The translations under genes were made by a program, and so were the position numbers. DNA of 52,437 bases from positions 1-52,437 of the forward strand of contig JAAUUW010000005.1 of the NCBI GenBank assembly GCA_012030735.1, written 5' to 3'. Positions 2,381 to 16,120 of this stretch are shown here, piece by piece (the stretch's first letter is position 1; each line of letters opens with the position of its first letter). This DNA comes from Acaryochloridaceae cyanobacterium SU_2_1. Its GTDB lineage: Bacteria; Cyanobacteriota; Cyanobacteriia; Thermosynechococcales; Thermosynechococcaceae. The notes under the pieces were generated by a model, which was not told where the DNA came from, made no database searches, and saw nothing but the letters and a program-made list of their open reading frames with translations.

Positions 2381-2409
2381 GATTGGGCCATCTTTGTTCC
2401 TGTGATTCC

Positions 2410-3337
2410 ATGCAAATTCGCCGTCGGCCTCCCAGCCTGGCTATTAATGTTCAGGTATTGCAATTCAAAATCAAAACACCGGAGGATCAACCCCGCAATA
2501 TTCTGGAAAAAATTGTCTGGTTCAAAGAGCTAGAAGTCACTCAAATGCGAGAGAGCTTACCCTTAGCTAAGCTGCAAAAGCAGGTGGAAAGCTGCCCTCC
2601 CCCCCTTGACTTTCTGGCTGCCTTGCGAGCTGGCAAAACCCAACCAGCCCTGATCGCCGAAGTTAAAAAAGCCTCTCCGAGCAAAGGGGTATTACGGGCT
2701 GATTTTGATCCAGTCATCATTGCCCAGGCCTATGAGGAAGCTGGTGCCTCCTGCTTATCCGTCCTCACAGACAAAGAATTTTTTCAAGGCAGTTTTGACT
2801 CTTTACAGCAGATCCGGGCTGCCGTCAGCCTGCCCTTGCTCTGCAAAGAATTTATTATCTATCCCTATCAAATTTATTTAGCGCGGGCGCGAGGTGCCGA
2901 TGCCGTACTCTTGATTACCGCTATCTTGAGTGATCAAGATCTCACTTATTTTTAAAAATCATTCAAGCTATGGGTATGGTTGCTTTAGTTGAAGTGCATA
3001 CCCAAGCAGAACTCGATCGGGTGATCCAGCTCCCTGGGGTGGCCCTCGTGGGGATCAATAATCGAAATCTGGAAACCTTCGGGGTCGACCTGCAAGTCAC
3101 CTGTGATCTATTGGCCCAGTCTAGACAGTCCCTAGCGATCGCAACATCTTGGTGGTCAGTGAATCGGGTCTCCACACCGCTGAGGATGTAGCTCAAGTCA
3201 AAGCAGCAGGTGCAAAAGCTATCTTAGTGGGAGAGTCTTTAATTCGGGATACTGATGATCAAGCCTCGTCTTGTAGCGAGCCAGATCGAATGCGAGCTAA
3301 AATCTCAGCTCTTTTTTCAGGGTTTTCTCCAGCCTAG
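2410..3337 (+). CDS. trpC: Indole-3-glycerol phosphate synthase (two frame breaks)
   Basis: TrpC closes the indole ring of 1-(2-carboxyphenylamino)-1-deoxyribulose 5-phosphate in tryptophan synthesis. The ATG at 2410 gives the N-terminus typical of cyanobacterial TrpC ([27 protein letters not shown]). Active-site blocks are all visible: [25 protein letters not shown] (CKEF where CKDF is usual), [24 protein letters not shown] and [12 protein letters not shown]. The frame is broken at 2949-2953, where TTTTT needs a sixth T to read [18 protein letters not shown]. It breaks again at ~3143-3148, where one base is missing between AIAT and ILVVSESG. With both repaired the protein is about 309 residues, normal for the family. 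A tryptophan gene broken twice by one-base losses is more likely sequence error than decay. The last ~30 residues are less conserved than I expect. Confidence 0.9.
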
Positions 3338-11922: not shown

Positions 11923-12171
11923 ATGGTCTTTAATTTTATTAAAATAAGTAAAGTTATGATCATAATTCTTGTCAGTGCTGCCGGTTTAGGATTGTGGTCC
12001 CTGCAATTAATGAGGAAAGCCCGTCAATCTGAGGAGGCTTCGCTGATATTTGCCGGGGCATTGGTTGCCCTGTCTGCAATGGGGTTGGTTGCAGTTTATT
12101 TGCTCATGGACGGTTGCATGGGATATTTCACTGGTAGTCAACCCCTATTGAGCCTCTTGCCAGTCTATTGA
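11923..12171 (+). CDS. Small two-helix membrane protein, unknown
   Basis: 82 residues with two hydrophobic helices (VMIIILVSAAGLGLWSLQL, and LIFAGALVALSAMGLVAVYLLM) joined by a short charged loop (MRKARQSEEA). I do not recognise a family. A GGTGA lies just before ATG 11923; the in-frame ATG at 11956 would remove the charged N-terminus. Its last seven bases overlap the 3' end of the convergent DMT transporter gene. Confidence 0.5.
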   Translation: MVFNFIKISKVMIIILVSAAGLGLWSLQLMRKARQSEEASLIFAGALVALSAMGLVAVYLLMDGCMGYFTGSQPLLSLLPVY

Positions 12172-13166
12172 GCTGAGTTGCCCAAACCATTGTTCGGATC
12201 ATGGGTTGCCCCATCACTTGATTTTGCTAGATAGACGCCCAACAGAACCACGAGAAAGGCAATCCATTTGGTAAGCGTTAAGCCTTCGGCAAAGACAACC
12301 CAGGCAATTAAGGCAGCCAAGACTGGGTCTAAAAGCAACAAAACGCCGACTAAGCTTGAGGATAGTTTTTTGAGGCTAAAGGCTTGCAAGCCTTGACCTA
12401 GAACTTGGCAAACAACGGCCAAGCCAATCACTGCCAACCAACCAGAAGCAGACACAGGAAATAGTCGCTCTTCGGTTAATAAGGTAATGGGCAGCGTCAG
12501 AACAGCTCCTAGGAAACAGCACCGTAGAAGGATGGTCGTCACCGAAAATTTGGCGCGTAGTTTCTCAATCAGCATGAGGTTTGCGGCGGAGAAAAGAGCA
12601 GAGAACAAGGCAGCTAAATCGCCTGTTAAATGGGCTGCAGAAATTTGCAGGTCACCAAAGCCTAAGACAGAGGCCCCAACCAGCGCTACTACCAACCCCA
12701 GCAAAAAGCGTCGATCAAAGCGTTGATCTAAGATTAACCAGCCACCTAGGGTTGTAAATAGAGGCGTGAGGTTATGGAGCAAGGTGGAGTTGGCAACACC
12801 GGTTTGAGTCAAGGACCAAGCCCAAAAAGCAATGCAACCCCAAAACATCAGGGCTGCTGCTGCCAATAGCAATTGATCCTTACGGGTAGAAGTGTCTGCT
12901 GGAACTTCGATGGCCTCTTTTGAAGCAGACCGCCAGACCTCGGCCTCATGCCAGACCCGCAAAACTAGATAAGCAATCCAAAAGCGATTAAAAATGGTGG
13001 CAAAGGGTCCTAATTCTCGCTCACTTAGTTTGATGAAAATGGCGGCTAGGGCAAGGGCCACGATTGCCCCAATCATAGCCAGCAAGGAGAGCAGCGTGAT
13101 GGATGGGGCCTTGCTAGATTGTTCGGCTGACTGATTGATCTGGAGAACGGGTATTTTCGTTGTCAT
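12165..13166 (-). CDS. DMT-superfamily (EamA) permease
   Basis: About 333 residues with roughly ten hydrophobic segments arranged as two EamA repeats. The first covers residues ~25-165 (AAIFIKLSERELGPFATIFNRFW, then GVANSTLLHNLTPLFTTLGGW). The second covers ~185-320 (DLAALFSALFSAANLMLIEKL, then LLLLDPVLAALIAWVVFAEGLT). Such proteins move small metabolites across the inner membrane; the substrate cannot be told from sequence. A cytoplasmic loop of ~35 polar residues follows the second helix. ATG 13166 is preferred over the in-frame TTG two codons upstream. Confidence 0.85.
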   Translation of the reverse strand: MTTKIPVLQINQSAEQSSKAPSITLLSLLAMIGAIVALALAAIFIKLSERELGPFATIFNRFWIAYLVLRVWHEAEVWRSASKEAIEVPADTSTRKDQLLLAAAALMFWGCIAFWAWSLTQTGVANSTLLHNLTPLFTTLGGWLILDQRFDRRFLLGLVVALVGASVLGFGDLQISAAHLTGDLAALFSALFSAANLMLIEKLRAKFSVTTILLRCCFLGAVLTLPITLLTEERLFPVSASGWLAVIGLAVVCQVLGQGLQAFSLKKLSSSLVGVLLLLDPVLAALIAWVVFAEGLTLTKWIAFLVVLLGVYLAKSSDGATHDPNNGLGNSAQ

Positions 13167-13518
13167 ACACAAGATCTTTGATTGCGGCCCTTCACTCTTT
13201 TCCCAAAGAGTTACGGTCCTGGCAGAGGGTGACCAAATAAGGACTACCGGATGAGCTGCATCCTAAAAGAGGAGCTGCATCCTAAAAATAGTTGAGTAAA
13301 ATAGCTCAGTCACAGAAGCATTCTGACAGAGGGCTTCAGGACTATGTAATATTCTCGCACTCTTCAGGATACTCTGGTTATGCGAGCGAATAGGTTTTGA
13401 TGGTTCTCGTTTTTATGTTTTTGGAAATCTGCGATCGCTCCATCCATCGCAGCACCACTGAGGGACTATCCCTAACAGCGGTATGACTAGTCTTTTGCTT
13501 CCTTGCCCTTGACAAGCC
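13167..13518. other. Intergenic region between divergent genes, with a short tandem duplication
   Basis: About 350 bases separate the start of the DMT permease gene and the SRPBCC-like gene, so promoters for both should lie here, though none is convincing. It holds a direct repeat (13253-13287, listed separately) and one HIP1 octamer near 13431. No small ORF with a good ribosome-binding site was seen. Confidence 0.6.
13253..13287. repeat. Two tandem copies of a 16-bp direct repeat (period 19)
   Basis: GAGCTGCATCCTAAAA occurs at 13253-13268 and again, identical, at 13272-13287. It may be a recent local duplication or a paired binding site; no further copies were noticed in the window. Confidence 0.85.
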
Positions 13519-14052
13519 ATGATCTTTTCTGTTGATGCCTCCATACCTTTTCCTCGTCCCTTGGTCTATCAAACTTACCGAGATCGGCTACTAGAGCTAC
13601 TGCCTTACATGGGCAATGTTCAACGCATTGAGCCAAGATCCGCTCACCAAGAGCAAGGTAAGTTGCGATGCAGTAATGACTGGTATGGCGGCGGAGAGAT
13701 TCCAGCGATTGCTAGAGCCTTTATTAGTGAGCAAATGTTGTCATGGACTGAACATAATATTTGGGATGATCAAGAATATTCTGTGTTGTGGCGCATTGAG
13801 ACCCATGCCTTTACTGAAGCTGTTACCTGCGCTGGCAAAAACTATTTTCATGCTCAGGGAAACACCACGATGGTCGAGAATCGAGGGGAGTTGGTGATTC
13901 ATGCCCAGAAGCTGGAAGGCGTTCCCGATTTTTTAAAACCGCAAGTGGCTGAATTTGTAGAGGCACTACTGGGACAAAAAATTGGTCCTAATTTGAGACA
14001 AATGAGCGAGGGAGTACGTCAATACTTAAATCAGCAAGAATTGAGCGGGTAA
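13519..14052 (+). CDS. SRPBCC/START-like hypothetical protein
   Basis: 177 residues, intact. The opening IFSVDASIPFPRPLVYQTYRDRLLELLPYMGNVQRIE, followed by alternating beta strands and a long C-terminal helix, resembles the SRPBCC (polyketide cyclase-like) helix-grip fold, a hydrophobic-ligand-binding family. The family call rests on the overall pattern, not on a diagnostic motif, and no ligand can be suggested. There are no membrane segments or signal peptide. Confidence 0.6.
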   Translation: MIFSVDASIPFPRPLVYQTYRDRLLELLPYMGNVQRIEPRSAHQEQGKLRCSNDWYGGGEIPAIARAFISEQMLSWTEHNIWDDQEYSVLWRIETHAFTEAVTCAGKNYFHAQGNTTMVENRGELVIHAQKLEGVPDFLKPQVAEFVEALLGQKIGPNLRQMSEGVRQYLNQQELSG

Positions 14053-14425
14053 AGGCATGAAGCCACAAACATAGGCAGGACAAAGCAAGGAGGCCGGACT
14101 GGATCTCCGCCAAAACTAGGCAGATTAGCTAGGCAGATTAGGTTGAGAACCTTAGTCAATAAGACTCTTACAGAGTAACGATTCATCCTTCCTAAGGAAA
14201 ATATTAGGGTTTAGCCCGATCCATTGAGTGCCAACCCTGCTCTTTACCTAGCCAAAGCAATATCCTTGCTGTCTCTCTTGAGGCCCTAGTGCTATTGAAA
14301 TTCCCAATATTCTTAGAGGGAGACTCTAAAATGAGTAAATAACATTCTATTGCTACTGGCTTCTCTGTTTGTGACCTAACCATCCTTGCCATGGAATTAT
14401 TGCAGAGTTTAATTGAGGAGTGCCT
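14053..14425. other. Intergenic region upstream of the cyclase gene, with a tandem repeat
   Basis: About 370 bases without a supported gene. It carries a perfect 13-bp tandem duplication (14116-14141) and, at its end, the GAGGAG ribosome-binding site of the cyclase gene (14415-14420). A short antisense reading frame around 14204-14392 has no recognisable similarity and was not called. Confidence 0.6.
14116..14141. repeat. Perfect 13-bp tandem duplication
   Basis: CTAGGCAGATTAG occurs at 14116-14128 and is repeated immediately at 14129-14141. Confidence 0.85.
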
Positions 14426-16120
14426 GTGCCGTACTTAGTGGCTCCCCCCGATTCCCAGAGTTCCAAGTCATATCAACTGTTCAGTGGCATTACCTCTATT
14501 GGACGGGGATTAGATAATCAGGTTGTGCTGATGCACCCGAGCTTGTCGCGTCACCATGCTGAATTAATCATTCAAGAAAATGGCCGCGTGATTCTCAAGG
14601 ATTTAGAGAGTCTCAACCATACCTATGTCAATGATCAGCAGATCAAACAATGCCAACTAAATGATGGTGATCTGGTCCGGTTTGGCACGGTGGAGATGCA
14701 AATTACTTGGGAGTTAGGAGCGCCCCCTCCTGCGGCTGACAAAACCCAACCCCATGCCCGACCCAGTGGTTCTCTATCGATTATTAGTCGCTTTGCGCCA
14801 GAAAATACCCGCATTGAAATCCAAGATTTATTAGAGCCGGCCCTCGGACAGTCAGGAATTGGCTTGAAACTTAAGCAGCAAGATAGTCAAACTCGGGTGG
14901 TAGACAAGTTAAAGATTTTGCTGGAAGTGAGCCATCAGTTGTCATCTCCCACTGAATTGAATGCGCTGCTCGATAAGATTCTCGATCTGCTGTTTGAAAT
15001 TATGGCTGTGGATCGAGGGTTGATCTTACTGGTGAATCCTCATACTCAAGAGCTAGAGCAAAAAGCCATTAAGTTTGCCAGTGGTATTCCCTCGGGTTTG
15101 CGATTTTATAGCTCTACGATTACTCAGTTTGTCCATAAATCTGGGGAGGGGATTCTGACGGATGATGCAGCTCGGGATCAGCGATTTCATCACTCTCGGT
15201 CGATTGTACAGCAAGCTATTCATGCTGCTATGTGTGTCCCCCTCAAGCCTAGGGATGAGGTGATTGGGGTTTTATACACGGATAATTTATCGATCCGATC
15301 GATCTACTCCCAAGAGGACTTAGAGTTTTTGACAGGGCTCGCCAATCAGGCTGCGATCGCAATTGACAACGCCCGCCTTTACAATAAAATCCAAACAGAA
15401 GCCGTTCTACGCACAAAGCTAGAGCGATTCTTTCCTCAAAATGTCTGGAAAAAGCTCAGCGAAGAAAGCAAATTAGAAATCATTGACACCAAAGTCACTG
15501 TTGTTTTTGCTGATATCAGCCATTTCACCGAGTTATCATCCCGCTTAGAACCGCGCCAAGTGATTGCCTTGCTCAACGAATATTTCAGCGCCATGGTCGA
15601 GGGGATTGTCTTTCGGTTTGAAGGCACCTTAGAGCAATATATTGGCGATGCTCTGCTTGCGGTATGGGGAGCACCCTACCAGCATCCTAACGATGCAGAA
15701 CGAGCCGTCCAAGCTGCGATCGCCATGCAAAAAACAGTCAACGAACTCAATCAACGCTGGACCGAACAGTGGGATCAAAGCATTCAAATTCATATCGGCA
15801 TCAATACAGGCTTGGTAGCCGCCGGAAACATTGGCTCAGAACAACTCCTCCAATACGGCACCATCGGCAATACCACAAACATCAGTAGCCGCATTTGCGA
15901 TGTTGCCCAAGCCGGTGAAATTTTAATCTCAGAAAGCACACTCAACGACTTAAAGAGTCAAGATTTACCCCTGCAAAAACTTCCCCTCGTGCGCGTCAAA
16001 GGAATCTCCCAACCCATACAACTCTATCGACTGCTGTGGCAGCAGCTACAAACCCCCTTGCAACTGCAAGAGATGGCAAGCAACCTAGGCGTCAATCAAA
16101 AATCCGCAGAGGGGGTTTAA
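14426..16120 (+). CDS. FHA-GAF-class III nucleotidyl cyclase
   Basis: A 564-residue soluble signalling enzyme. An FHA phosphothreonine-binding domain (residues ~15-90: SIGRGLDNQVV, SLSRHHAELII) is followed by a GAF domain (~155-310: DRGLILLVNP, MCVPLKPRDEVIGVLYTDN) and a class III cyclase domain (~350-530). The two metal-binding Asp are present (VVFADISHF and YIGDALLAVWG), as are the transition-state Asn and Arg (NTTNISSR). At the two base-recognition positions I read Gln (EQYIGD) and Gly (QYGTIGN) instead of the Lys and Asp/Thr of standard adenylyl cyclases, so the product could be cAMP or cGMP. GTG 14426 is preferred over GTG 14420 because GAGGAG sits five bases before it. The FHA domain suggests recruitment by a Ser/Thr kinase. 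Confidence 0.92.
   Translation: MPYLVAPPDSQSSKSYQLFSGITSIGRGLDNQVVLMHPSLSRHHAELIIQENGRVILKDLESLNHTYVNDQQIKQCQLNDGDLVRFGTVEMQITWELGAPPPAADKTQPHARPSGSLSIISRFAPENTRIEIQDLLEPALGQSGIGLKLKQQDSQTRVVDKLKILLEVSHQLSSPTELNALLDKILDLLFEIMAVDRGLILLVNPHTQELEQKAIKFASGIPSGLRFYSSTITQFVHKSGEGILTDDAARDQRFHHSRSIVQQAIHAAMCVPLKPRDEVIGVLYTDNLSIRSIYSQEDLEFLTGLANQAAIAIDNARLYNKIQTEAVLRTKLERFFPQNVWKKLSEESKLEIIDTKVTVVFADISHFTELSSRLEPRQVIALLNEYFSAMVEGIVFRFEGTLEQYIGDALLAVWGAPYQHPNDAERAVQAAIAMQKTVNELNQRWTEQWDQSIQIHIGINTGLVAAGNIGSEQLLQYGTIGNTTNISSRICDVAQAGEILISESTLNDLKSQDLPLQKLPLVRVKGISQPIQLYRLLWQQLQTPLQLQEMASNLGVNQKSAEGV

Follow-up and report, generated by a model that had tools for sequence, protein, structure and literature searches.

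A Gln/Gly base pocket in the FHA-GAF class III nucleotide cyclase of Acaryochloris

Results and discussion

The base pocket of an FHA-GAF class III nucleotide cyclase has, as judged from aligned sequences, been rewritten and fixed throughout the genus Acaryochloris, and a parallel rewriting probably took place elsewhere in the same cyanobacterial family. In the alignment the telling change is the replacement of the first base-reading Lys by an amide residue, always paired with Gly at the second base-reading position. The gene lies at positions 14426-16120 of the window (i.e., the whole stretch of 52,437 nucleotides analysed here), and the best reading of its product is a purine cyclase with relaxed specificity, with strict ATP use as the second.

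Gene structure and domain architecture

The window is part of contig C169 in a genome assembly of 3.0 Mb (206 contigs, 87% complete). The gene and its domains are as follows.

14426..16120, + strand: FHA-GAF-class III nucleotide cyclase, 564 aa plus stop, GTG start (orthologues)
14492..14686, + strand: FHA domain, residues 23-87 (Pfam PF00498, E 1.1e-19)
14957..15364, + strand: GAF domain, residues 178-313 (Pfam PF01590, E 6.5e-17)
15491..16027, + strand: class III cyclase domain, residues 356-534 (Pfam PF00211, Guanylate_cyc, E 1.1e-27)

The frame at 14426-16120 contains no internal stop codons. An alternative in-frame GTG was seen by eye at 14420, and because it overlaps the GAGGAG at 14415-14420, position 14426 is the better start. 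The order FHA, GAF, cyclase, together with end-to-end homology, places the protein in the cyanobacterial FHA-GAF-cyclase family. An AlphaFold model built on a 15-row alignment (mean pLDDT 75 and pTM 0.41, so that domain packing is unreliable) has the class III fold, with solved class III cyclases matching it at Z 24-26, including Pseudomonas CyaB (26.3), the Synechocystis PCC 6803 guanylyl cyclase Cya2 (PDB 2w01; 25.8, 32% identity) and the Spirulina/Arthrospira platensis adenylyl cyclase CyaC (PDB 1wc0-1wc6; 25.7).

Catalytic residues and base pocket

15512..15514, + strand: metal Asp363 (Asp in 65/66 orthologues, one unreadable X)
15635..15637, + strand: base-reading position 404, Gln (CAA) replacing Lys (alignment, orthologues)
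15647..15649, + strand: metal Asp408 (66/66 orthologues)
15857..15859, + strand: base-reading position 478, Gly (GGC) replacing Ala/Thr (alignment, orthologues)
15878..15892, + strand: transition-state Asn485 and Arg489 (kept in 66/66 orthologues)

The metal Asp pair and the transition-state Asn and Arg that characterise class III cyclases are all present (D363, D408, N485, R489), as the first-pass annotation had it, and both Cya2 and CyaC share these catalytic residues. In ungapped stretches, Gln404 aligns with Glu of Cya2 (EFMGD in 2w01) and with Lys of CyaC (KFVGD in 1wc0), and Gly478 with Gly of Cya2 and Thr of CyaC. The earlier placement of Gln and Gly at the base-reading positions therefore agrees with the alignment to both enzymes, which puts no Lys and Thr/Asp in the pocket. 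The canonical adenylyl cyclase Lys is replaced by Gln404 in 6/6 Acaryochloris, whereas CyaC has Lys and Thr. Within the base pocket, the likeness to Cya2 is confined to Gly at the second position, since Cya2 has Glu at the first and Tyr at the site of Ser488; its sensor is also of the CHASE2 membrane type rather than FHA-GAF (PMC5995499).

Ser488, three residues past the catalytic Asn, is Ser in all 31 rows checked, and Lys525, which we take to be the phosphate-binding Lys, is kept in 31/31 rows of one alignment. Position 527 is Ile in 6/6 Acaryochloris and Lys in 25/25 others, which gives little cause for concern, since the active enzyme CyaC carries Ile at this site too. A single-base change separates the Gln404 codons from Lys codons (AAA/AAG), and the same holds for the Gly478 codons and Ala (GCC).

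Distribution of the base-reading residues

Searches of four overlapping genome sets (97, 388, 126, and 130 genomes) yielded 66 end-to-end orthologues from 63 cyanobacterial genomes, a count that leaves out matches of 31-42% identity in the first two sets (other subfamilies or partial); the final survey was chosen without a motif filter and read position by position. The residue pair at 404/478 was Lys/Ala in 30 orthologues, Lys/Thr in 29, Gln/Gly in 6, and Asn/Gly in 1, where the numbers count sequences rather than events and many Lys/Thr rows are close relatives from one genus (g34). The Gln/Gly pair occurs in 6/6 Acaryochloris copies (the window's own included, the other five ~77-82% identical), and the same two residues in all six exclude chance or sequencing error. 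The Lys-bearing orthologues (59/66) share this domain order and align with the window's protein from end to end at 48-61% identity; they differ in carrying Lys404 with Ala or Thr478, and their product is presumed to be cAMP.

Among the 66 orthologues, an amide at 404 and Gly478 co-occur in 7/7 cases with neither found alone, and the combinations Lys/Gly, amide/Ala, and amide/Thr were not seen. The first-pass description of both base-reading residues as non-standard thus stands for the change of Lys to an amide, but Gly itself is not new, given Cya2's Glu/Gly and an Ala at the second position in 30/66 orthologues. A second, separate Acaryochloris cyclase family (L003, L066, L067, L069, L070, and L071) has a Lys/Gly pocket with Asn/Arg intact, so Gly by itself needs no amide.

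The Asn/Gly copy was picked up by searching 291 genomes with a Gly pattern. Its genome (G120) holds two paralogues, L101:5010-6689 (- strand) with Asn/Gly and L100:5255-6985 (- strand) with Lys/Ala, a natural before-and-after pair.

A Gln-motif pattern matched 29/388 genomes, compared with 272/388 for the Lys pattern, although it covers one motif spelling and is no census. The idea that Gln is common elsewhere was rejected: of the pattern's 23 matches outside Acaryochloris, 17 were by eye not cyclases (short or unrelated frames), and the remainder comprised five members of a Gln/Thr family and one Gln/Leu. This Gln/Thr cyclase-like family (L147, L148, L150, L153, and L154; ~585-620 aa) has lost Asn/Arg in the four members read (L147, L148, L150, and L153) and likely consists of pseudo-cyclases. 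Two further kinds of class III protein were observed. Long Acaryochloris proteins (L072, L075, and L076; 1148-1185-aa frames) have a class III domain with an Arg/Ala pocket, and a Lys/Asp cyclase of ~700 aa (L001, G000:C152, compared with L057-L060) has GS at the expected second metal Asp; the window organism's L001 reads TIAYR where its four sisters read NIAHR, so that its catalytic Asn is seemingly changed.

Origins and selection

The tree covers 47 of the 66 rows; most of those omitted were near-copies. In it the six Gln/Gly sequences form one clade (support 100/100), with the window sequence as the first branch within Acaryochloris, and the Asn/Gly sequence pairs as sister with the Lys/Ala paralogue from the genome that holds both (support 95/86). 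Forcing the seven amide/Gly sequences into one clade cost 25 log units (p-AU 0.019), a test to be read knowing that the group was named after its residues had been seen and that the Asn/Gly branch is long and represents a single sequence. These trees suggest that the amide and Gly pair likely arose twice, independently. In genome G120 the change came after a duplication, and the Lys/Ala copy remained.

Mean pairwise dN/dS in Acaryochloris was 0.041 for both the cyclase domain and the whole gene, and in six Lys/Thr relatives 0.036 and 0.046, respectively; dS was saturated in many pairs (usable for the cyclase domain in 11/15 and 13/15), so these values give the order of magnitude only. On these substitution patterns, the gene is under strong purifying selection rather than in decay. 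Among the 61 cyclase-domain sites that do not vary across 25 other orthologues, 5 differ in Acaryochloris (356, 404, 427, 482, and 527), four of them in all six copies and the fifth in one, and sites 404 and 482 fall within the two base-reading motifs.

What the enzyme may make

In adenylyl cyclases, Lys and Asp/Thr contact adenine N1 and N6, and in guanylyl cyclases, Glu contacts N1/N2 and the second contact is often absent (PMC7384201). The Glu/Gly pair of Cya2 accompanies guanylyl cyclase activity (PMC4215837, PMC4886424), and E488K alone turns Cya2 into an adenylyl cyclase (PMC5995499, PMC4215837). In Ma1120, K101E/D157G gave the best guanylyl cyclase activity, and the further change A167Y left no preference between ATP and GTP (PMC4215837); in CaRhGC, E497K/C566D switches the enzyme to ATP (PMC5967339). 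In the excerpts of open-licence literature available to us, we found no test of a cyclase whose first base-reading residue is Gln or Asn and nothing on this gene or any Gln/Gly cyclase, a weak absence given the restriction to open licences. The first-pass annotation regarded the product as uncertain, in agreement with what the sequence shows.

We tentatively favour a purine cyclase of relaxed specificity, which would make cAMP together with substantial cGMP owing to the changes Lys404 to Gln and Ala/Thr478 to Gly, a reading whose chance we put a little short of even. The protein is predicted to be an active, homodimeric class III nucleotide cyclase, putatively regulated by the FHA (phospho-threonine) and GAF domains at its N terminus. 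On the branch to Acaryochloris, Lys404 would have become Gln, whose carboxamide is both hydrogen-bond donor and acceptor and could pair with adenine N1/N6 or guanine O6/N1, and Ala/Thr478 would have become Gly, making room at position 6, as Gly does in Cya2; the strict choice of ATP may thereby have been lost. Relaxed purine choice is favoured because the carboxamide is compatible with adenine and guanine alike, and with Gly the second contact disappears. Against it, the second residue is already non-polar in about half of the family, and the step from Ala to Gly may therefore matter little; moreover, the Tyr that raises guanylyl cyclase activity in Cya2 is Ser here.

A somewhat unlikely alternative, though the strongest of the others, is an ordinary adenylyl cyclase in which the Gln404 amide alone reads adenine (N1, N6), the substitution being neutral or affecting rate rather than substrate. 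The Mycobacterium tuberculosis cyclase Rv0386, a natural non-Lys adenylyl cyclase with different domains, has Gln at the first position and Asn at the second. Its activity is mainly that of an adenylyl cyclase, a precedent for simple ATP use. The Lys of the other 59 orthologues points the same way, as do the Ala at the second position in 30 of them, from which Gly is a small step, and Ser488 in place of Cya2's Tyr. A neutral change is, however, unlikely to have struck both base positions together twice with no intermediate among 66 orthologues.

A dedicated guanylyl cyclase resembling Cya2, in which Gln stands in for Glu, is quite unlikely. Gln and Asn do mimic the shape of Glu and Asp, and Gly is Cya2's second residue (PMC4215837, PMC4886424), but Glu reportedly accepts from guanine N1-H and the 2-amino group (PMC7384201, PMC4886424), which an amide oxygen can serve less well, and Cya2's Tyr is missing. 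Membership of a Cya2-like guanylyl cyclase group by kinship was rejected, with both Glu and Tyr absent.

That the protein is a pseudo-enzyme, or turns over very slowly, and has been retained for FHA/GAF signalling and dimerisation is very unlikely in our view. Change of Lys to Glu at the first position abolished adenylyl cyclase activity in CyaG and Rv1625c (PMC4215837), and the changes at 5/61 otherwise invariant cyclase-domain sites in Acaryochloris would suit such a protein; yet the metal Asp pair, Asn, and Arg are kept in every readable copy, and constraint on the cyclase domain matches that seen in the Lys-bearing relatives. Finally, a pyrimidine cyclase (cCMP/cUMP, Pycsar-like) is extremely improbable: the cyclase domain is matched by PADLOC PycC profiles (E down to 6.5e-18), but so are 15/15 family members, among them Lys/Thr and Lys/Ala proteins, some of which score higher (2e-25). 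These matches thus reflect general class III kinship, and since Pycsar effector profiles had no match among the six neighbouring ORFs, Pycsar identity was rejected.

Beyond relaxed purine choice in this one enzyme lies a wider and unlikely proposal. Two class III base-reading codes exist, Lys with Asp/Thr for ATP and Glu with Cys/Gly for GTP. Carboxamide (Gln/Asn) with Gly might be a third natural code, evolved at least twice in one phospho-regulated cyanobacterial family, once by duplication beside a Lys copy, because it yields a different product or mixture (cGMP, cAMP with cGMP, or another cyclic nucleotide).

FHA/GAF control and neighbouring kinases

Phospho-threonine-binding FHA domains have a pattern of conserved Gly-Arg, Ser-Arg-x-His, and Asn, which the window's FHA domain matches; Gly26, Arg27, Ser41, Arg42, His44, and Asn64 are invariant in 15/15 aligned family members. 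The domain thus looks competent, in line with the earlier suggestion that it implies phospho-dependent control. Anabaena CyaD also has an FHA domain. The gene of this adenylate cyclase (All0743 of Anabaena PCC 7120) is activated by FurA/NtcA (PMC12282138). The NKFDE motif of cNMP-binding GAF domains of the CyaB1/CyaB2 type (PMC4411481) was sought by eye, and GAF residues 178-313 contain no NK dipeptide.

The kinase at 504-2141, proposed in the first-pass annotation as a partner, found no support and was set aside: in this assembly it falls into three frames (483-704, 659-1354, and 1314-2141) with a Pkinase match only in the middle piece, it lies 12 kb off, and other Acaryochloris have a different kinase at the cyclase locus. 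A gene at 2383-3196, which from its sequence we take to be indole-3-glycerol-phosphate-synthase-like, is also split over two frames, and the split genes at 483-2141 and 2383-3196 suggest indel errors of assembly or sequencing at this contig end. The cyclase locus itself has the following neighbours.

12165..13172, - strand: EamA transporter, conserved outer neighbour (Acaryochloris loci)
13519..14052, + strand: neighbour gene without assigned family, 177 aa, locus marker (65-70% identical in 5/5 Acaryochloris loci)
14053..14419, no strand: 367-bp gap where other Acaryochloris have kinase-DUF4189 (kinase trace not found)

The product of 13519-14052 had no Pfam or NCBIfam match. A Ser/Thr kinase-DUF4189 gene stands at the cyclase locus in 6/6 other Acaryochloris genomes, and in 5/5 whose contig spans the site it sits between the cyclase and the 177-aa gene. 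A loss of the cyclase in one of them (G003) was considered and rejected, as its contig ends 339 bp past the kinase, at about the cyclase start. Elsewhere in the window's genome the best match to kinase-DUF4189 has 56% identity over the kinase domain, and at 87% completeness a relocated copy could be missed. The kinase may have been lost from the window lineage or gained in the other Acaryochloris. Separately, the window's genome has two kinase genes related to kinase-DUF4189 (58-63% across the domain), separated by ~4 kb, of which one is split between two frames (L127, G000:C176).

Across the family, 17/49 loci have a Ser/Thr kinase gene no more than 2.6 kb from the cyclase, and in 13/49 it is within 600 bp. 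Kinase genes number 22.6 per 100 kb over the first 600 bp and 0.46 per 100 kb at 2.6-5.2 kb, a far count that is somewhat low because the linked kinases were themselves among the probes and certain loci stop a short way from the cyclase. At least four kinds of kinase adjoin the cyclase: kinase-DUF4189 in Acaryochloris, those of G368/G377/G033/G034 (55-63% mutual identity), those of G111/G202 (71%), and that of G090, whose relatives (~60-62%) adjoin the cyclases of G439, G424, and G467. They occur in three arrangements (divergent upstream, co-directional downstream, and co-directional upstream). This looks like repeated recruitment of kinase genes beside the FHA cyclase, which supports phospho-control through the FHA domain; against control by a neighbouring kinase, 32/49 loci have none, including every examined g34 locus.

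Implications

How class III cyclases choose between ATP and GTP is still incompletely explained, and in the RhGC-GTP structure the predicted base contacts are partly absent (PMC7384201). The probable parallel rewriting of the pocket, with Lys-bearing sisters (~50-60% identity) as controls and both versions in one genome, offers a clean natural experiment on this choice. A 2014 review lists Cya2 as the only confirmed bacterial guanylyl cyclase (PMC4284465), so a second natural route to cGMP, if true, would matter. The different Ser/Thr kinase genes found repeatedly beside the FHA cyclase further outline a testable kinase-FHA-cyclase pathway in this cyanobacterial family.
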